Shown here in pieces: positions 47,549 through 64,000 of a DNA stretch of 64,000 nt. The position numbers and the translations under genes are program-made. Position 1 is the stretch's first letter, and every line of letters begins with the position of its first letter. The notes beneath the pieces were generated by a model. That model saw only the letters and a list, made by a program, of their open reading frames with translations, made no database searches and had not been told where the DNA came from. This stretch comes from Phaeodactylum tricornutum CCAP 1055/1 (taxonomy: Eukaryota; Bacillariophyta; Bacillariophyceae; Surirellales; Neidiaceae): NCBI RefSeq assembly GCF_000150955.2, contig NC_011692.1, forward strand, positions 359,196 through 423,195. The letters run 5' to 3'.

Positions 47549-48001
47549 AATGACAGTCAACGTGGTTTTATGAATCTCCTATAACTACTGTAAATCGAGA
47601 GGTAGATGCGAAGATGCTCCGTTTTTGTGTCTACAGGATTTTCCTTCCCCGAATAATCATCGCTCCTGTCGGATTTCTATCGGCACTTTCTCGATGAAGA
47701 ATTAGCGTTATGGCTTGACTGTGATCGTGTGATCGAAACTTCGATCGGTTCGTAATGACTCAGAACCTAGGTTTTCGTTTCGATAATTGTCCATCGCTGA
47801 TCTCAGTCGTTAAGTTATTGATGTCGCGGACACTCGTCATCTACTTTGGGACCACGAGTTGAAGAAATCCTCCTGTCGGTATCTTGTTCGCGATCTTGGC
47901 ATCCGCTGTTCAAGCAGGCGAGAAGTGTGGGCTGTTCCAACACAATTCTGCCGAATTCTTCGTCTAGGACTGTATCACACCCAAAGTTTACCGTTTTCAC
48001 C
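47549..48001. other. divergent promoter, membrane protein / Lhcf
   Basis: Contains TTGACTGTGAT at 47715-47725. The sequence just before the Lhcf ATG (GTTTTCACC) is its presumed 5' leader. Confidence 0.4.
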
Positions 48002-48616
48002 ATGATGAAGCTTGCTCTCCTAGCCTCTATTGCTGCTGGCGCCGCCGCATTTGCTCCGTCTCAGGGTCAGTCTGCCCGCGCTTCGGTTGCCACGAACATG
48101 GCCTTCGAAAACGAAGCCGGTGTCACCGCTCCTCTGGGTTTTTACGATCCCCTCGGATTGGTTTCGGACGGCGACGAGGCTAAGTTCAAGCGTCTCCGTT
48201 TTGTAGAACTCAAGCACGGACGCATTTCAATGCTTGCTGTTGTAGGGTACATTGCCACCGCGACCGGAAACCGTCTGCCGGGAACCATTGATTTCGCTGG
48301 TACCAAGTTCTCCGACATTCCGGCCGGATTCGGTTCTTTGGCCAACATCCCCGCCGCTGGCCTCTGCCAGATTCTCTTCTTCATTGGACTTTTGGAGACT
48401 TCCTTCATGCGTGACTGGGTTGGTGGAGAGTCGGTGGGTGACTTCCGCAACAAGTACATCGACTTTGGCTGGGACTCCTTCTCGGATGAAGAAAAGGCAC
48501 GTCAGTACAATGTTGAGCTTAATCAGGGCCGTGCTGCACAGATGGGAATTCTTGCCCTCATGGTGCATGAGCAACTCGGCAACGTGGACGATATCTTACC
48601 GTTCAAGCTTATCTAA
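48002..48616 (+). CDS. Lhcf: fucoxanthin chlorophyll a/c-binding protein (Lhcf type)
   Basis: The protein has 204 residues from 48002; a second ATG lies at 48005. The N-terminus is a signal peptide (LALLASIAAGAAA) followed by the plastid motif AAA|FAPSQ. The mature protein starts near MAFENEAGVTAPLGFYDPLGL. Three membrane helices follow. Helix 1 has the chlorophyll-ligand motif RFVELKHGRISMLAVVGY, and helix 3 the matching RYNVELNQGRAAQMGILALMVHEQL-type motif (VELNQGRAAQM). The pair of E..H/N-x-R motifs is the LHC signature. The protein binds fucoxanthin, chlorophyll a and c in thylakoids as the main antenna. Paralogue number not assigned. No intron. Confidence 0.95.
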   Translation: MMKLALLASIAAGAAAFAPSQGQSARASVATNMAFENEAGVTAPLGFYDPLGLVSDGDEAKFKRLRFVELKHGRISMLAVVGYIATATGNRLPGTIDFAGTKFSDIPAGFGSLANIPAAGLCQILFFIGLLETSFMRDWVGGESVGDFRNKYIDFGWDSFSDEEKARQYNVELNQGRAAQMGILALMVHEQLGNVDDILPFKLI

Positions 48617-49783: not shown

Positions 49784-50481
49784 CGTAGTGAAGAGATTAG
49801 GAGTTAAATCCCTTGACACATCTGCATCGTGAAACCAAGAGGCATACACTGTTTGTCATGGTGGACCTCATGAAAGACAGGAAAATGGGTCGCACTTTTC
49901 GCTTCTGCGATAAAGTTCAGGTTTTATCTTCCAAGCTCGTTGTCCACGTGACTCCCACCTATCTGTATATTATCTACAGCTAAAACATTTATTTGGAATG
50001 GTGTCGTCGTCTTGTCGTCATGTCTTCATAGAAAAACGTTAACTCTAAGTGTGAAGTTTCTGATTGCTACAAGGAGCGCAATAGCCGATATCTCATGTTG
50101 TGGTAGTTACAGTTAGTGCATGCTCATTCCGTTGCGCTCTGTCGATGGATGATCCCCCCCTTTCTCGATTCCGACTCCGGGACGATGCTTTGACTGTGAA
50201 TGGTGTTCCACTCCGTGCTTTTAATTCTGGTTGATAGCGGTTCTTGCCCCGTCTTACCCAAACACTTCACTTTTTCAGCCTCGTGCATCCTCTCGCTTAT
50301 AGCAGAGAATCGTATAATCGAGAAAGAGTGATAGCAAACTGAGAGCTTTTTGAATTCCTCTAACGACTGACCGAATCACTTAATTTCTTCTGTATCATTT
50401 AGCGACGAGAAACCAGCGCACTCTCGGTGAGAGGTCCGAATAGAGGGTGAGGAGAGAAGGAAGAATTGCTTCTTATTTACT
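49784..50481. other. divergent promoter region
   Basis: Contains TTGACTGTGAATG at 50190-50202, about 280 bp before the Rav1-like ATG. No gene seen. Confidence 0.45.
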
Positions 50482-53400
50482 ATGGTTGAAAAGAATTCGT
50501 CTCGAACTGGAGACACAGAAGGTTTTTTTCGACGTAGCTGGACTGGAAACAATCATCGACCCGGCACGCAGATCGAGGAGGGTGTAAACAGCGCGCCCCC
50601 TCCTCTACCATCATCCTCGATCCATCCAGGGGTTCGCAGTTTCTCTGCACCCATCCAGAATGGCATGGACCGACTTCCTGTCGCTCCCAATGGTATTAAA
50701 CCAGGTTCCTTGAGGGCACCAGGGGAACTCGGTGTCGTTCGTAACTCCGAATCCACTGACCGCGCGGACTCGTCAGAAGAGGAAGCCGAAGCTAATCCCT
50801 TTGTTCGAACACACCCAAATGTGCTCCGTATGCATCAACGAGAAAATGATTTGATTCGAGCATCGCGAACACCGGCATCCATTGCTGCCCAGACCCAGGC
50901 TCTTCGCGAGCTGGCAAAACGGTATCCGACGCCGACTTACTCGGCAAGCTTCTGCTACCGTGGTATGGAGGTTCTAGTCGCCACCACATCCTTGCCAACT
51001 TGTTATTTAATGTTTGCGCGGACACGATTTGTTTTCCAAACCTTGCAAGTCGATACGAATTTCGCGATTGTGGCCTTGACGATACATCCAACTTCCGGAC
51101 AAATTGTCCTGGCCCAAAAGGATGGGTCGGTTCGATCCTACGACCCCGAATCGACTGATCCTTTAGTGGAGAATTACGGCCCTTATCGTTGGAGGGACGG
51201 ACATGCTTTTTCTTGTGTCGATTTCTTCTCCACCGAAAACGATTCCATGCAGATCACTGATGCCTCGGTTGATCCAGCCCATTCCATAGCACTGAGTCTA
51301 TCTGACGACTGTAAATTACTCGTTGGTCATCATGATCAAATTGCGGTCTTTGACGTAGCTTCCAAAAATTCCAAATCAAAGAAGCATCGGAAAACGGTTG
51401 AGTGTCTGTGGACCACCCGGTTGCCTAAAAGAGTCCTCTTGGCACAGCTTTCTGGTGATGGACATGCCATAGCATTGGTTTTAGATCACAACTCAAGTTT
51501 CAATACAACAGGCTCTTTGGATGGTACCGACAACGCTGATGCCGACGGTGTGTATACATTCGAACGCGATTTTGACGACGGGGGTAGTCTAAGTTCTTTT
51601 GGTCCCGTATCAGTCGACGATGTGCCCTCTGTTGTGAGTTTGGCAAGTTCCCCAACGGTCGGTATTCTCTATAGGCCGGGCCCATACATTGTTCTCCCTT
51701 CGCCAGTTGTCCGACTCTCTTTTCGTGGTTTTGGCCACTTGACCTCTGAAATTACGCGAGATCCAAAAATTCGACCTGCAGGGAACGATTTGCTGCTGAC
51801 TAGTTGCTCCGACGGTGTGGCCAAAATTTTTTCCCAGTACGAGTGGCAAGAACTTGTGTCGTGGGAAACACCCCCGTCGACACGGGTAGATTGGGTTCGC
51901 AACATTACTGCCTTGACATTGGGTGATTTGGACTCGTCCACTCCAAGCAAAGCCCGGAGCGCCCGGTCGTCCCGTCGACCGAGCACCACTTCGCTGATGG
52001 ACCTAGACGAGGAAGCCGGCCACGAAACCTTAGGCAAGAGAAACCACTTTTCGTCTATTCCTAGCCACACGACACCGTCGTCACACGCTGGAGCGTGGGT
52101 TTCCGAATTAACATTTCAAGGGGCGTTTCCAGCATTACGTATTTCTCGATTGACTTACCTGAAACGTAGTCTAAGTGACTGGAAGCCAACACTGCTCGAA
52201 TCCATATCGGCCTTTTTACCGCCCGATAGTGTATTAAAAGATCGGGTTCTTCATACATCTGATGTAGGCTTAACAGTGGAAGGTGTTTGGCCTGCTTGGA
52301 GTCCGTGGGCAGCAACGGTCGAGCCGTCAAGCAATGCAGGCGATGCCTTGGGAGGGTCAGCCATGGAAAGCCTGGGCTTGTCGTCGGGACCGCGAACGCA
52401 AGGCGGCGGATTTTTTTGCGACAACTTTTTAGGTGGAGCGCAGACCCCACCAATCGAATTGCGTATAACTGCTCTGCATCCCGTTAGCGGTCAAGTGGTC
52501 GTCATGGAAATTCCCGTGTTCGGAGATCAGACTTTGAATACGGTAGAGATGGGAAGTCCAATTCGCTCCGTCGTGTCTGTACTGGATCTGGATTTAAGAT
52601 CCAAACAAGAGGTGACTCCTTCAGCTTCGACAGATAATGCTGCGAATCGATTAGTCGCAAGTCTTGAAGAGGCTACCAACATTATTTCGCTTACCTTGCG
52701 GCAACCCGGGACTATGTCGCTCCTCCCTGATACCTGGTCACGAGAAGATGCAAATCCCAAAGTAGCTGGACATTTGCTCAATAATCCCACAAAATTTCGG
52801 GATGAAAGCTTGGTATCTGTACCTTTAGCGTTACCTCCATTTCAGCTCCCCAAAGATGATGGTGTTGTGACAGCCTTGCGGTGGTGGCCAAGCAATCCTT
52901 TTTCGGGGACGTCAGTCGTTTTGGCATTTACAAGCGCTGGTACTATTGTAGCCATCAAAATCCCTCCCACCTGGAGTTTTTTGGAGCCCCCAATGCCTGG
53001 TTGTGATGAATCGATCCCTTCTATAGTGGGCAATAAGTCCAGTATGTGGGAAGACGATCCTGATTTCCGTATGGAAGACTACGAAGTATCGATCGTTCCG
53101 GAGGCAGAATATGGGCTTGGCCTTCGGCTAGAGAGTCATGTGCACGGCATGACCGCGATCGCCGGCTCGTTCAAAAGGCATCCCTTAAACGGCGAAATGC
53201 TCCCGGCCGAAAGAACCGGAATGATTACGCTAGGTGATGAGCTTTTGAGCGCCAACGGAATCTCCCTCAGTGAAAAGTCGTTTGAAGAAATCATAAGCGC
53301 TGTACGTGAAATAGGCGCCAACGCAAACATTCGACACCCAGTCAGGATGAAGTTTCGACGCCGACCCCTCAATACGCGGCGAAGGGCTGGTAGCCAAACG

Positions 53401-56400
53401 TCGGAGACCTCGGGAAGAAGGACGATGAATGAGATGATTGGTGTTACACCCGAGGAATTGGAAAGAAACCCAGTTTTTAATCGAGGTAGTGCCCAGACCA
53501 CGGACCGATCCCAGAATGGTTCAGAGAAGAATTGGAACCCTACGAACATGTATGGATCAATTGCCGTGTGTACGGTCTTTCGAAACCTTGGATTGTGGGA
53601 GACACCAGACGACGTTTCGCGTATGGTCATTTTACCGCTTAATTCCAACCGTGACACCATTCATGCTCATCAGGAAGCAATCCTGTTCTCCATTTCTGGA
53701 ACGCATGTCCTTGCAACAGCTCTATCATTGTCACAAGATCTGGACCAGATGGCGTCTCCCGCAGAGAAGTTGGGGTCGTGCCGAATCGGGGACCAAATAT
53801 TGACAAACATAACGACCGCAGATGCTTCCTCTTCAAGTGTGTCACTGGTGGTAGTAGACAGTGCAGGAATGGTGCGTTTGCTTGTTGTCTCTATCACTCC
53901 TAAAGAGAGTACGCACTGGACCATTTCCTTTCATACCTTCGATCTATTCAAAACAGAGATACGGAGGATGACCAACTTGATTGTTAGGGCCTGTTCAGTG
54001 CAGCTTATTGCCGTATCGTCGTCAGAGGACGAAAATGAAATTGCTGTATGGTCGGCTAGACCGCACCCAGGTTGTCTTCTCGAAAAAGGCGGCGGAAAAG
54101 AGCATGTACAGGATATCAGTTGGGATTATTTTGTTTTTCTGTTGAGAGTTAGTCCAAACTCAGTCGGCACTACTTCAGACAAAACCAAGATTATTGATTT
54201 CTCTTTCCTTCGATCTGGCTTTCTAGACGCATCTCCCTCTTTAATCTGCTATTCTGGCAAGAGCGTTTCGATATACCAGCGCTGCGGTGGCGGACGGGAC
54301 TGGGAACAAAGAACTGAAATTTATTACTCAAACAGTCCAACCTCGTCGAGTACTACAATGACTGCATCTGCTTTTGGCTCGACTGCACTGCGCCAACTGC
54401 GCCTTTTGGCGTCTACTCGAACCCATTGGATGTGTTTCCTCACATACTACCTGCCTTGCAGTGTGCCTTTGCGTCATCAGACGAGAGCACCTTCTTACGC
54501 TCGGACTGGCACCCGGACTCCTTTCTTGCAGAAATTTGTTTGGATGATAGAGGTGTTAAGGCTGCTTTGGACGACCGACTGCGATCTTTGTTTTTGTGGC
54601 TTAGCTCCGTAGGAAAGGATTTGTCGGACGAAGATTTGGAAGGGCCTCTACGTGTAGCACCCCTGCTCATAGTCGAAGAAAAAATTTCTGAAGACAGCGA
54701 TGGTCAGGATCAACCTCGAGCAAGACTGACTCTGCTAACGGGTCCGGCTACGGACCAAACACTCCCATCGCAAAACGTCGCGAGAGAAGTGAGTAAACTG
54801 AAGAGTTTTCGGGATATACTCTTGTGTAGCATCAATCAGGCAATTCCTGAGTCGTCTTCCACCGTTCAGTCGCTCGATTGCGACCTAGGCATCAAAAAAG
54901 AAGAGCTCCCACCGCTCCTACGCACATTGTCTTCTGAAGATTTGGAAATTATTTGGGCCCTATACGATATGCTGGTAAAACCGCCTTGTTTCGACAAGCT
55001 AGATAAGCTAGGGCAGCTATTCCTGTTCACCAGAGAAATCTTTCATCGGCTTGCAGCTATTACAAATAAGATAGAAAGCTCGATTTCTACAAGGATACCA
55101 ATGCCGTCAATGCATGTTAAGATCACTTCGAAGTCCGGTGGGAGCCAGAGTTGCGAAGAAACGTACGTGGCCTCCTCCGGCTGCTTGGCTGCTCTTATGA
55201 GCCGCTCTCAAAATAAAATTTTGGACTGCTGCCGTGCAAATGGACATAAGTTTGACTGGCCATTCGCGAGAGACCTTCGCATTGCATTCTGGCTGCGGTC
55301 GGATAGGGAGCTTGCCAAGATATCGGAAGAGATCGGCCAGACTCTTTACAGGGCCAAGAAAGAGATAATGGAATGCGCACTATTCTTTGTGATTGCGCGA
55401 AAGACGAGAACTCTCCGAAATTTAGCAGCAGCAGATTCGACCGATAGTGGGAGGAAGCTATTCCAGTTTTTGACGTCTCATGACTTCTCTGACGAGCGAG
55501 GTCGACGAGCTGCAGAAAAAAACGCATACAGCCTTCTTCGCAAAAACAGATATGGCATTGCATCCGCGTTTTTCCTCCTTGCCGAGCCCCCTTTTCTCAA
55601 GTCAGCTCTCGAAGTGATTGTGACAAAAATGCGAGACTCAGACCTTGCTTTCGCTGTTGCGAGGCTAACGGAGAGTTCTGTTGCCGCCCTACAACCCAGT
55701 CTGAATGCATCTTCCGTAGGGCTTGGAGGCATACTTGGAGGTGGAGGCGGGTATGCCATTCCACCCGGATCAGACTCTTCGTTGGATGGTGAGGACGGAG
55801 AACGTTTTGACGATTGGCAACCAGATCTTGGAATGTATTCTAAGAAGCTGTTGGTGGAACAATTGCTTCCTCAAGCTGAGCGAGACAATGCTCTGAGCGC
55901 TATCCAGCTATTATGGCTTGGTAAAATTGAGGAAGCGTCTTGGTGGCTATCCGGGTTCATAGAACCCAGCCATGATAGCGACACGGGTTATCGCTTAGTC
56001 AACGATATCGATCACCGTGTATTCGGAACAAGGACTGATGCGAAAAGACAGTGTGCTGGATCAATGAAGCTGTCGAATGCAATTGGCAAGGTAAACTTGC
56101 TTGTTGACTTCATCTCGGCTCCGCTCTTGCTTGACGCCCTGGGTGGGAGTCAGCGAGCTCAATTTGCTTCATGTTTAGCAGTTTCGAGTGCGTTGATTGC
56201 GCGGGGAGTTGAGATGCCAACTATTCGCTCTCTACTACATTTAGCTGGTTCTCAAATGCTTTTGAAGCATCCCATAACTTGTCTAAGTCCCAGAGAGGAC
56301 GCGAAACACGGTCTGTCGCCCTCGTCGGCAGCTGTGAAGCCGTCGATATCCAAGTCATTAAGTTCTTCCCTCCAGCCAAAGCGAAGCTGCAATTTAGCGG

Positions 56401-59400
56401 TTGCTGCTTCCTCGGGGGTTATGTCGTCCTCTGTTTTTGATTCGTTTGATACACCTCCTACCCACAACTCGAAAGCGAAGGTTTCAGACCATTTTGAGAG
56501 ATCAGAAACGGTGCAGTCTTCTATTTTCGATGCCTTTGATGCTCCGCCTACCCAAAATTCGAACCCGAAGGTATCAACCCAGGAAGGCAGATCCTATGGG
56601 ATGCAATCATCCATATTTGACTCCTTTGATCCTCCTCCTCTCCAGAATATAAGTGTTACGGCAGGACGTGATGAGACATCGGGGAACATAGAGTCGTCCA
56701 TTTTTGACTCGTTTGATGTTCATCCCGGACCGACTGTGAAGGGATCTGCATGCGACGATCGATCCGGAGACGTGCGGTGTACTGCCATTTCATTTGATGA
56801 CACAAGACAATTATTCAGCGAAAATGATGCCCAAGAATCGAAGGTTTTATGTCCTGTTGACAATAGACCAACTATTGACAATCAAGAGGCGATCAAGAAG
56901 TCCGAAATAGCGATTTCTCTTTCAATCTGTCGGAAAGGGATCCCAGATTTGTGGAGCGAATGGCGTTATAACATGCTTTTGTTATGCGCTGGGAGGCGCC
57001 TACTGCGTGAAGTGGCGAGCGTCGTAGCTCAATTTCACGGGGACCCGCGGCCTCAGTCAATGGTGTCTTTTTATCATAGCGAACACCCGCTTGTTCCCTC
57101 AAGGGCATCTGAAGTACTGCAGCTGAGATGCGACTCCGAAAAAATAATAGGAAGAGTCAAACGGTCTCTGGAACAGCTTTCCACAGCAAGCGGGTTGGAA
57201 ACTCTTGTTGTTGTAAGTTGCTCAGTCCAGCTTTTGGGTCATTCCCAACAACGCCGTAGAACACTTTTTACTGTTATTCTTTATGCCGCAGCGCAACAAG
57301 ATGACATGGCTGATCTCATCGTTCGAGCCGCTGCTTCGGATCTCATTCAAATGGCGAAGAGTATGGTGTTTTGTAACGACGTTTTTGTACTCAAACAAAA
57401 ATCGCGTTCGCACGCATCTACACAGCATATTCGGCGACTAGCGGCAAGGTTGAGTTGGCAACTAGAAATTTGCATGTGGCTGCAGCGGGGTGGAGGTCTT
57501 TACTTATCTGCAAGTACAATCAAAGATGCAATTGCCGCTGTGCGAGTTGGCATTCTCATAGCCAGCTGGAACCGCAACACCGAATGCTTGGAAGCCATGA
57601 TTCGAAACCAACCAGACTGTTCTCTCGACGACGAAGCAGGACATCCGCTGTGGACAAATTTAAAAAGCTTTACCGCTCCCGAGAGAGAAGTAAAAAAAAA
57701 CAGAAAGATCTCAAGTGGTGGATGGGAGTTTTTGGTAGACTGCAGAAGAACAGAGGCGACAAAAATGCTGCGATGTAGACCTACGGGGTGCTTCATTATT
57801 AGGCCACATCCAAACGACCATGGGGTTTTCACGCTCAGTTTTAAAACTAACTTAGCGAGTGAGGAGGGAATGCCTAAGGATGGCGAACAGCAGCTATCTG
57901 ATCATGGGGAGTTGGTGAATAGGCCTGAGCAACCTAGTTCTACAGTAATGTCTTCACGGGCTTCGAAAAGAGACGACATAGTTCAACATGCGGTTGTCAG
58001 GTTGTCTGAATCTGGATTTCGATGTGGTTCTTTTGGTCCTTTCGCTAGCCTCATCGGTCTCCTTGAAGCCGTGTCAGCATCGCTCCCTTTCAATTTGAGG
58101 TTCGATCAACCGCCAGTTGACCGGGTAATTCAAGAAGGATTCCAGCCTTCTCCAAATGCAGTATTTTTCCGAAAGCTAGCCCTCAGTCATGCGGATAGCG
58201 GAGCTTATCCCCAGCCAGCCAAAGTACAGAGTTGTCAAGTCCCGTCTTCTCCCAAGGAGGAGCGAACCTCTTCGACATTCCGAACAGGGAGCGAAGATAC
58301 CAGATCCGAAAAGAAGATATCTTTTGCCTATTTTCTCGAGCTCACGACTCTGAGCAAAATTCATCGGCAATTAAGTGCCGTTGTATCAGTTCACGTTGAC
58401 GAGGCTCATCAGTCTGATGGGGAGGTCATGACGACAGACGAAAGCTACGAAGCAGCGTCGGATAGTGTTTTATCGCTAATGACTTTTCATGGAGTCTCCA
58501 CTCCGTACGCTTCTTCGCGGAGGCTTCTTAGTCCTCTGATATGTTGGGGCCGTTCTTTGGAAATTCTTTCCGTGGAGTATGTAGCCCCGGAATTGAATGG
58601 CTCTTTCGATCCCAGATTGCCAGTGGATTTTGAGGAGTCGGCCGAAGAAATTGAAATATTTCAGCACGAATCCGCAACTACGGTCGAGCAAGGGGACGCA
58701 GTACTTCGACAAATGATCAAACGAGGATCTGGAGTCGATTTCAGTACGTTACGCTTAAGTGACGGTGGTGATTGCACTATGGTTGTGGTTTTTGGAAAGA
58801 AGGAAGGAATCGAGTGGTTGCTTTCCAGCGGATTAGAAGCTAGTGAAACCGGCGCTTTGAGAAGATTGAAGATAATGGAGCATGAGAATATTATCGAACC
58901 AATTGAAATGCAGCGACTCCCTCTGAAACATAAGGTACCTGAGCACGGAGAAAGTGATGTGAGATACAGGATTGTTGACCCCTGGGAAGTGGAAGCGCTT
59001 CCGAATCGTGAAGGCGAGACTCGAGGAGCCTCTCTTGGCAGAGAAAGCTTCTCAAGGTTTAGTATAGGGCAGGTGGCACTGTCATCAGAGAGTACCCTTC
59101 GTGATATTGGCGGGCATTCGCTTTTAGAGCTGTGGACCAGCACGAAAGGAGGAGTGCTTTTGACAAAAGCGTTAGCTTCGATAGATACACCTTGGGAACG
59201 TGCCGGGGCAGGAGATTTGCTTCCAGGAAATGGAATAATGACCAGTGTTCCTCCGTACTTAAATAGCATCAGGCAGCACTTGTACAGGAACGCGCTGTTT
59301 CGCCGCCTCGACCTTCCGCAGCGTTTTGTTGCACTAATGCAAGTGGAGTTGCTCGACCTAAAAAACTTGTCGTCTCCCGGTGGCTCAGTTTCCCTCTCAA

Positions 59401-59987
59401 CTTACGCGCTGTTGCGCCTGAAACGTGACGGCAACAGGGCGGGCTTAACCAACAAAACACGGACACTTGACACAGCAAAGACACATGCCACCAAGCTTGG
59501 GAAATCTTCTGGTCCAAATGCCCCGGCGTCCTGGGGAAGCGTCGTTCGATTCCGTTTCCCCCTCCCTGAAGATGTTTCTGTGGAAGGGTCAAGTCTCGAC
59601 GATGATCGAGAAACACTATTCAAAGGACCCCCGTGTGTACTTCAGATTACAGTGTACGAAAAAAAGCTTATCGTGGATAACTCACTGGGAACTGCAGATA
59701 TTCGCACAGACGGCCTTTGGAGCGGAGGCCAGCTTGAGGAGTGGGTGCCTCTGCGCTCAGATAAGCAAACCATTACATGGTTTGCTCGAATCAGATTGAC
59801 ACTAAGGTATGAATTAATGTGCCATGCGTGCGACGCAGTATCCATGGACACTATAAGCGGTACCTCAAGTGTTGGACTCCGGAGGATGGAGGAACTCATC
59901 CGTGCAGGTGCTTCGGCGCACGAAGATAACAAGCAAGCTACAAGCTCCCCGGATTTGTTGACATACTTTGAGAGCATGGTGTACTAA
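50482..59987 (+). CDS. Rav1/DMXL-type giant protein with PDZ-, SH2- and C2-like modules
   Basis: Two long overlapping frames (50482-54612 and one open from 54318 to 59987) make one gene. A GT-AG intron at 54350-54480 would join them in frame (3124 residues), but see findings. N-terminal WD-like repeats are followed by a PDZ-like module at ~875-962 (GMITLGDELLSANG). The Rav1 C-terminal domain at ~1555-1785 has FWLRSDRELAKI, AEKNAYSLLRKNRYGIASAFFLLAE and IQLLWLGKIEEASWWLSGF. Four ~30-residue repeats with SS[IV]FD[SA]FD come next (~1940-2043), then an SH2-like module at ~2370-2500 (WEFLVDCRRTEATKML, GCFIIRP, GVFTLSF) and a C2-like module at ~2905-3070. Rav1/DMXL proteins drive V-ATPase assembly in the RAVE complex. 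The extra modules are inferred from motif reading. Confidence 0.8.
53104..53370 (+). other. PDZ-like module in Rav1-like protein
   Basis: The segment GLGLRLES...GMITLGDELLSANGISLSEKSFEEIISAVREIG...PVRMKFRR has the length, glycine positions and GDxLLxxNG turn of a PDZ domain. A carboxylate-binding loop (GLGL) is present. Seen in the translated sequence; domain call by eye. Confidence 0.65.
56433..56740 (+). repeat. four ~30-residue tandem repeats (FDxFD motif)
   Basis: The motif [IV]FD[SA]FD begins at 56433, 56523, 56613 and 56700, spacing 90, 90 and 87 bp, in frame. Each copy continues with Pro-rich residues (TPPTHNS, APPTQNS, PPPLQNI, VHPGPTV). Regular codon-length spacing shows a tandem duplication within the gene. 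Confidence 0.85.
57718..58110 (+). other. SH2-like module in Rav1-like protein
   Basis: WEFLVDCRRTEATKML matches the SH2 start (W..G.ISR.EAE.LL). GCFIIRPHPNDHGVFTLSF matches the FLVR-loop strands with the phosphotyrosine-binding Arg present. After a ~45-residue insertion, VQHAVVRLSESGFRCGSFGPFASLIGLLE matches the rest. Confidence 0.68.
59325..59820 (+). other. C2-like module in Rav1-like protein
   Basis: The stretch from MQVELLDLKNLSS through STYALLRLKRDG, SWGSVVRFRFPLP, CVLQITVYEKKL, LGTADIRTDGL to EEWVPLRSDKQ...IRLTLRYELM has the strand order of a C2 domain near the C-terminus. Few acidic Ca2+-loop residues are seen. Confidence 0.65.
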
Positions 59988-62925: not shown

Positions 62926-63257
62926 TGTTGAAATCTCGACTCTCTCTCTGTATATTCCACGTAGAATAACAGTAATCTTCTCACAAGTTGACTAAACCTA
63001 AATTAGTGAGCATTTGCTCTTATCCTCTAAAGTGATTTCGCACGATCAACTTCGACCAACTCATTCCTTCTTTCTTGCTGATTCGTTCCCATGTTGAACA
63101 TATCTTGCTTCTTCACGTTCAATACTGTTTTCCTAAATGTGTATCTTGAACTTCATGATCTTGAATAGTTTCTCTCTCCACGTCAGTCAGACGTGCGTCT
63201 CTAACGTATGCTCTCAGTCCGAAGTACGGACACATGACTGACCGTCATATCACGACA
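62926..63257 (-). repeat. 3' LTR of Ty1/copia element
   Basis: 332 bp, reading TGTCGTGATA...TTTCAACA on the element's strand, with TG...CA ends. Directly before it (63258-63268) is a purine-rich tract, GGAGGGAGGA, the likely plus-strand primer. Outer boundary inferred from the break into AcnB sequence; the flanking 5 bp ACGTC (62921-62925) would be the target duplication. Confidence 0.72.
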
Positions 63258-64000
63258 TCCTCCCTCCGGGCTTCGGACTTGGATTTCCTTCATCAAATCG
63301 TTCCAATTTTCTCGAACGTACATTGTACCATTCCTAATATTGCCTGCATGCTTCTGATGCAAATTCTCGGTCGTATTCTTCGTACCAATATCCGCCTCAT
63401 TGTTCTCCGATCGTGTATATGTAATATCAATCTCGCCTTTGTCATAATGTTCGCGAATAAAATGATAACGCACATCAATGTGCTTTGTCCTCTGACCTAC
63501 TTGCTGGTTCTTCACCAAAAATATTGCTCCGGTGTTATCCTCCAATATGACTCCTGGATATTCGCATTCTCCGAGTTCCTTTAATAACATCTGCATAAAA
63601 AGTAATTCTTGTGTAGCCAGCGCGACTGCAACATACTCTGCTTCGCAACTGCTTAACGTTACCGATGTTTGCGTTTTTGACATCCAATTTGTCAATGTTC
63701 CACCAACTGTAAAAAATGCTCCTGAAACACTTCGACGGTCATCTTTGTTTGTTGCGTAATTACTGTCAACATTAGCAACAGCTCGCATCTCTCGCGGTTT
63801 TCGATATGTTAATTTCACATCGTTCTCGTTTTTCTTCAAATATCCCACAGCTCTTTCCAACTCTTTCCAATGTTCCAATCCTGGATTCGAAAAATGTTTT
63901 GTTAATTCTCGTGCCGTATTCGATCCTTCTGGAAATATCTTCGTAACCAAATACATGTATTTTCCGACAATAGATCGATATTTTTCTGCATCCACTGTTT
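63201..64000 (-). CDS. Ty1/copia polyprotein, RT tail and RNase H (5' part off window)
   Basis: At least 264 residues continue beyond the window edge. The visible part starts in the end of the copia reverse-transcriptase/connection region (MDAEKYRSIVGKYMYLVTKIFPE). It contains RNase H: VDSNYATNKDDRRSVSGAFFTVGG, SSCEAEYVA, EDNTGAIFL and TKHIDVRYHFIREHYDKGEIDITY, giving the D-E-D triad. The stop lies 57 bp inside the 3' LTR, so the last 19 residues come from LTR sequence. Frame is intact in the window. Similar to diatom CoDi elements in kind; subfamily not assigned. Confidence 0.9.
   Translation of the reverse strand, partial: TVDAEKYRSIVGKYMYLVTKIFPEGSNTARELTKHFSNPGLEHWKELERAVGYLKKNENDVKLTYRKPREMRAVANVDSNYATNKDDRRSVSGAFFTVGGTLTNWMSKTQTSVTLSSCEAEYVAVALATQELLFMQMLLKELGECEYPGVILEDNTGAIFLVKNQQVGQRTKHIDVRYHFIREHYDKGEIDITYTRSENNEADIGTKNTTENLHQKHAGNIRNGTMYVRENWNDLMKEIQVRSPEGGCRDMTVSHVSVLRTESIR

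Follow-up and report, generated by a model that had tools for sequence, protein, structure and literature searches.

Does a diatom protein of the Rav1/DMXL type carry signalling modules, and if so, what could these do in a scaffold for V-ATPase assembly? The question is raised by a gene in the 64,000-nucleotide stretch of Phaeodactylum tricornutum DNA analysed here (the window, C24:359196-423195; the genome searched comprises 27.45 Mb in 88 contigs). The coding region opens with the ATG at 50482 and runs in one frame to about 54379 and then in a second frame to the stop codon ending at 59987 (Table 1). The original prediction, made from the sequence alone, had described a Rav1/DMXL-like protein surrounded by segments resembling PDZ, SH2 and C2 domains. 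We herein show that the protein is a diatom Rav1/DMXL relative, and that all of these modules occur in a single protein in 117 of 117 diatom-like relatives of at least 2700 residues. Given this, we consider it rather probable that the protein is the RAVE scaffold of diatoms, i.e., the Rav1/DMXL orthologue, and that the added modules place or gate V-ATPase assembly.

Table 1. Features of the Rav1/DMXL-like gene, in window coordinates.
Feature	Position	Strand	Remarks
Gene, first part	50482..54379	+	residues 1-1299; open frame 50431-54612, followed until the 14 extra bases
Double beta-propeller region, PDZ inserted within	50923..54342	+	model residues 50-1189
PDZ domain inside second propeller	53095..53367	+	model residues 768-861; present in 117/117 relatives of at least 2700 residues
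14 extra bases shifting the frame in the window copy	54380..54393	+	second copy on the contig lacks them; P0001 uninterrupted here
Gene, second part, including stop codon	54396..59987	+	P0001 residues 1301-3163
Rav1p_C domain, helical	55155..55676	+	PF12234, 2.9e-34
Linker with four SSIFDxFD-type repeats	56427..56717	+	repeats at 56427, 56517, 56607, 56694
SH2 domain with variable CD-loop insertion	57723..58106	+	Pfam, alignment, predicted fold
SH2 Arg, alphaA2-type	57747-57749	+	key residue
SH2 Arg, betaB5-type	57801-57803	+	key residue
SH2 His, betaD4-type	57987-57989	+	key residue
C2 domain near C-terminus	59307..59831	+	predicted fold; weak Pfam matches

The Rav1 core and the added modules

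The Rav1 C-terminal domain, which the original prediction had called clear, lies far above the Pfam cut-off in the window translation (118.9 bits versus 27), the Rav1 part of the protein matches yeast Rav1 by sequence (PDB 9cop chain x, E 9.5e-16), and the predicted structure contains the N-terminal pair of beta-propellers. Since Rav1 is known to bind V1, the diatom protein would be expected to do so as well. The animal proteins DMXL1/2 (rabconnectin-3 alpha; mRAVE) resemble it both in size and in Rav1p_C, whereas yeast Rav1, compared here by length, has 1357 residues against about 3160; moreover, the propellers of DMXL and Rav1 are reported to be superimposable (PMC12527914). The search for the Rogdi partner returned no match, and neither did its control. 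Possibly, this Rav1 descendant has left V-ATPase assembly and serves more generally as a scaffold for trafficking or signalling; FD repeats such as those of its linker are reminiscent of adaptor-binding motifs, and a rabconnectin-3 protein with endosome and signalling roles was described in zebrafish (PMC4011682). However, no further Rav1p_C locus was found in the genome, and both the propeller pair and Rav1p_C have been retained; such a change of function is very unlikely in our view.

The PDZ domain had been placed at 53104-53370, limits that needed only slight refinement. On its own, the window segment scores 18.0 bits versus a Pfam cut-off of 23.2; among sampled members, 12/12 match Pfam PDZ (best 3.5e-7), and a profile of these members finds the PDZ domains of GRIP1 and DLG in PDB (best 9.9e-14). 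In the model, the order of strands and helices at the corresponding residues fits a PDZ domain; propellers occupied the list of structural matches for the model, and no PDZ chain was among those listed. The glycines of the GLGL-type loop (G878 and G880) are conserved in 117/117 relatives, as is a Phe (53281-53283) at the presumed specificity position, which was assigned by eye and would suggest a hydrophobic-type ligand.

Among the modules of the protein, the SH2 domain shows the highest conservation, and its segment is predicted to adopt an SH2 fold. The 130-residue segment reaches 23.5 bits for PF00017 (22.8 in the genome search) versus a cut-off of 21, while the scores are lower for the whole second frame (17.9), the second copy of the gene (20.2) and a 138-residue cut (20.7) of P0001, a 3163-residue protein that was retrieved when the second frame served as the query of a protein search. 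With an E limit of 1, PF00017 also matches 12/12 sampled members (best 4.6e-8). Hence, the predicted SH2 domain with an FLVR-type Arg is supported by score, predicted fold and conservation, but its proposed coordinates (57718-58110) are out of frame by two bases. The betaB5-type Arg 2436 is kept in all 117 relatives, and so are the other Arg and the His, at positions that we take to be alphaA2 and betaD4; these three residues bind phosphate in classical SH2 domains. The six-frame search detected no other classical-type SH2 in the genome, which additionally encodes the Spt6 tandem SH2 (C15, 9.8e-27). From classical SH2 domains (SHP2, Fyn, Crk, PLC-gamma, p120RasGAP), the diatom domain differs in its host protein, its BC loop, an invariant CGSFGP segment and a CD loop that carries about 40 additional residues of variable sequence.

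There are two other readings of the module. The first is that the added modules are structural, stabilising a large scaffold or binding fixed partners of the diatom RAVE, with an SH2 domain that does not read phosphorylation. In its favour, the BC loop is unlike the classical pocket, and the CD-loop insertion is long and variable (conservation 0.287). Moreover, the best structural match of the SH2 domain is, by its title, a binder of a nonphosphorylated peptide, with a score close to those of the others, many positions outside the pocket are equally invariant, and the C2 domain lacks most of the usual calcium-binding Asp residues. The retention of the phosphate-binding Arg, Arg and His in 117/117 relatives speaks against a purely structural role, which we regard as rather unlikely. 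The second, less plausible still, is that the ligand of the SH2 domain is phosphoserine/threonine or a doubly phosphorylated site, as for the Spt6 tandem SH2, or that the domain acts as an intramolecular switch by binding a phosphosite of its own protein, e.g., in the Ser-rich SSIFDxFD linker. The Spt6 tandem SH2 provides a precedent (PMC5599234); serine accounts for 81% of the sites in the diatom phosphoproteome (PMC7408324), and the SH2 domain is preceded on its N-terminal side by conserved SSIFDxFD repeats. However, by sequence the diatom SH2 is closer to PF00017 than to the Spt6-type PF14633 (11.2 bits versus a cut-off of 27), despite weak PF14633 matches in 4/12 members (best 0.012). Like the Spt6 tandem SH2, it occurs in a eukaryote outside animals, but it is single and resides in another protein and pathway. 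We favour a domain that may bind a phosphorylated partner.

The linker repeats occur, in a looser SSIFDxFD form, in 1 to 9 copies in each of the 117 relatives and in 0 of 50 shuffled proteins; they look like binding motifs. The C2 domain, expected at 59325-59820 and now slightly extended, shows a clear C2 fold in the predicted structure near the C-terminus and does not reach the PF00168 cut-off in the window (16.2 bits versus 22); 10/10 sampled members match weakly (best 0.0079). A C2 profile compared with PDB by sequence found no C2 domain, and its sole match, Cas2 (E 0.31), was taken as chance. Judged by eye against the usual calcium-binding pattern, loop 1 (SPGGSxSxT) has no conserved Asp, while loop 3 contains Glu 3055 (108/117), two Lys and Asp 3061 (98/117). 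The domain may bind lipid.

Distribution among relatives

The layout, whose presence in other diatoms had been proposed as a check, is conserved across pennate and centric diatoms; named carriers include Nitzschia, Epithemia, Mayamaea, Cylindrotheca, Chaetoceros, Thalassiosira, Skeletonema, Cyclotella and Discostella. The relatives are called diatom-like by identity to the named ones, all of which are diatoms. Conservation was counted in those 117 of the 137 diatom-like proteins (156 found minus 19, P0102-P0120) that have 2700 residues or more, taken from the best 120 of 125 and the best 120 of 135 matches, where shared words served to restrict the candidates to about 8000; the small alignments used 12 of 16 (SH2), 12 of 16 (PDZ) and 10 of 15 (C2) of the listed sequences. 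Among all 137, we found PDZ in 124, SH2 in 136, C2 in 133 and Rav1p_C in 131, and every member without a module falls below 2700 residues. Among the first 101 matches listed, the precomputed Pfam labels include SH2 in 7 and PDZ in 8; thus, annotation pipelines detect these modules only sporadically.

This distribution bears on the idea that the modules reflect chance similarity or are encoded by a distinct adjacent gene, an idea for which one could cite the sub-cut-off Pfam scores of PDZ and C2 in the window sequence alone and the split of the window copy over two frames. The presence of all modules in one protein in every long relative refutes it, bearing in mind that these 117 proteins also served to build the profiles, so that matches among them arise partly by construction. 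Additionally, conservation along the protein peaks on the modules, and the predicted SH2 and C2 folds match; hence, we judge this idea to be extremely improbable.

The claim that known RAVE scaffolds lack such modules was supported for fish: the SH2, PDZ and C2 profiles match 0/18 DMXL1-type proteins (a count by subtraction), in a comparison confined to fish proteins, with yeast Rav1 and plant relatives outside it. Fish DMXL1 (P0108) ends in a C-terminal WD propeller, whereas the diatom protein has C2 near its end instead, and none of SH2, PDZ and C2 is among the best 25 of the 37 Pfam families listed for P0108. Compared with yeast Rav1, which was itself not scanned for modules, the diatom protein bears PDZ, SH2, C2 and FD repeats. 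Among the literature titles and beginnings of abstracts listed, where subscription papers are mostly uncovered, no paper on a diatom Rav1/DMXL-SH2 protein was found, and the terms 'algae', 'protist' and 'tyrosine' each had a count of zero in the main text of PMC8264551, a review on RAVE.

Two more distant proteins suggest that some modules have a longer history. P0157 carries PDZ at the same place (44.1 bits by profile, 30.2 bits in Pfam) and combines PDZ and Rav1p_C with a C-terminal glycosyltransferase, which is probably due to a fused gene model. The fragment P0109, whose source name 'trimeric autotransporter adhesin' is misleading, shares 65% identity with P0157 across some 100 residues in the Rav1 part; a protein search with its residues 22-125 matched only P0109 itself and P0157. 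It carries seven similar FD-type copies, which were found neither in P0157 nor in three fish proteins tested, as well as a diverged SH2 that includes the segments GTLLLRP and CHAVLR; this SH2 match has a low score (19.2 bits) and escapes Pfam, but 0/2000 shuffles reach it (maximum 8.2). Since P0157 has the PDZ domain and P0109 a diverged SH2, both modules are probably older than diatoms.

Reading frame and second copy of the gene

The original prediction had spoken of a spliced protein, which is wrong here. An intron between the two frames was rejected, as the difference amounts to only 14 bases, which resemble an imperfect repeat of the bases directly 3', and intact copies have nothing between the two parts. 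The window translation is near-identical to P0001, with 7 differences in the first part (1299 residues) and 7 in the second, the latter counted from the fourth residue of the translated piece onwards. Because P0001 also reads straight through the frame change, the locus is one gene of about 3160 codons with no visible intron.

A second copy, which comprises the 3' part of the gene, lies just outside the window (C24:426504-433171), lacks the 14 bases and is 99.6% identical to the window copy over 6682 bases (13 mismatches, one gap). It is directly preceded by a 3308-base run of N (423196-426503) and adjoined 3' by a long terminal repeat (LTR)-type element whose two direct repeats (433173-433481 and 438478-438786) are 309 bases long. 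The published reference is described as a mosaic of haplotypes, and haplotype-specific LTR insertions are mentioned (PMC8147415). On account of the N run, the identity, the LTR-type insertion and the mosaic reference, the two copies are probably two alleles set in tandem, a reading that we favour over a possible true tandem duplication of the gene. The main texts of two long-read papers do not contain the term 'Chromosome 24'. If the 14-base insertion is real, the allele carrying it would retain only the propellers and PDZ.

Elsewhere in the window, a gene for a chlorophyll a/b-binding-type (light-harvesting) protein lies at 47822-48616 (2.5e-33). An open frame on the minus strand (63201-63998) reads by eye as the end of a Copia-type retroelement polyprotein and gave in Pfam only a weak, sub-cut-off match to Endonuclease V; the window ends at an assembly gap.

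Possible role in V-ATPase assembly

We postulate that the core, i.e., the two N-terminal propellers and the helical Rav1p_C, would bind V1 and assemble the V-ATPase, bringing V1 to Vo as in yeast. To this core, this lineage would have added SH2, the near-C-terminal C2, PDZ within the second propeller and the FD-repeat linker. PDZ, by binding a protein tail, and C2, by binding anionic lipid without calcium, may hold the scaffold at a chosen membrane, while SH2 would dock onto a phosphorylated partner; V1 would thus join Vo only at sites where these signals coincide. In diatoms, tyrosine makes up 3% of the phosphorylation sites (PMC7408324). In a more specific form, which we put forward tentatively and hold to be possible rather than probable, the RAVE scaffold of diatoms, and perhaps of other stramenopiles, is a coincidence detector in which a classical SH2 reads phosphotyrosine while PDZ and a calcium-independent C2 choose the membrane.

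RAVE-driven V-ATPase reassembly responds to signals, which arrive at the scaffold by largely uncharted routes. In the diatom protein, modules that in other proteins recognise phosphorylation, protein tails and membranes are part of the scaffold. A classical-type SH2 so far from animals also bears on the origin of phosphotyrosine reading. If the coincidence detector is true, a phosphotyrosine reader became established in a line other than that of animals, where it was coupled to organelle pH instead of kinase cascades. Our collective results suggest that diatoms may direct acidification through phosphate, protein-tail and membrane signals, with the endosome, the vacuole and the silica vesicle as candidate sites of this output.
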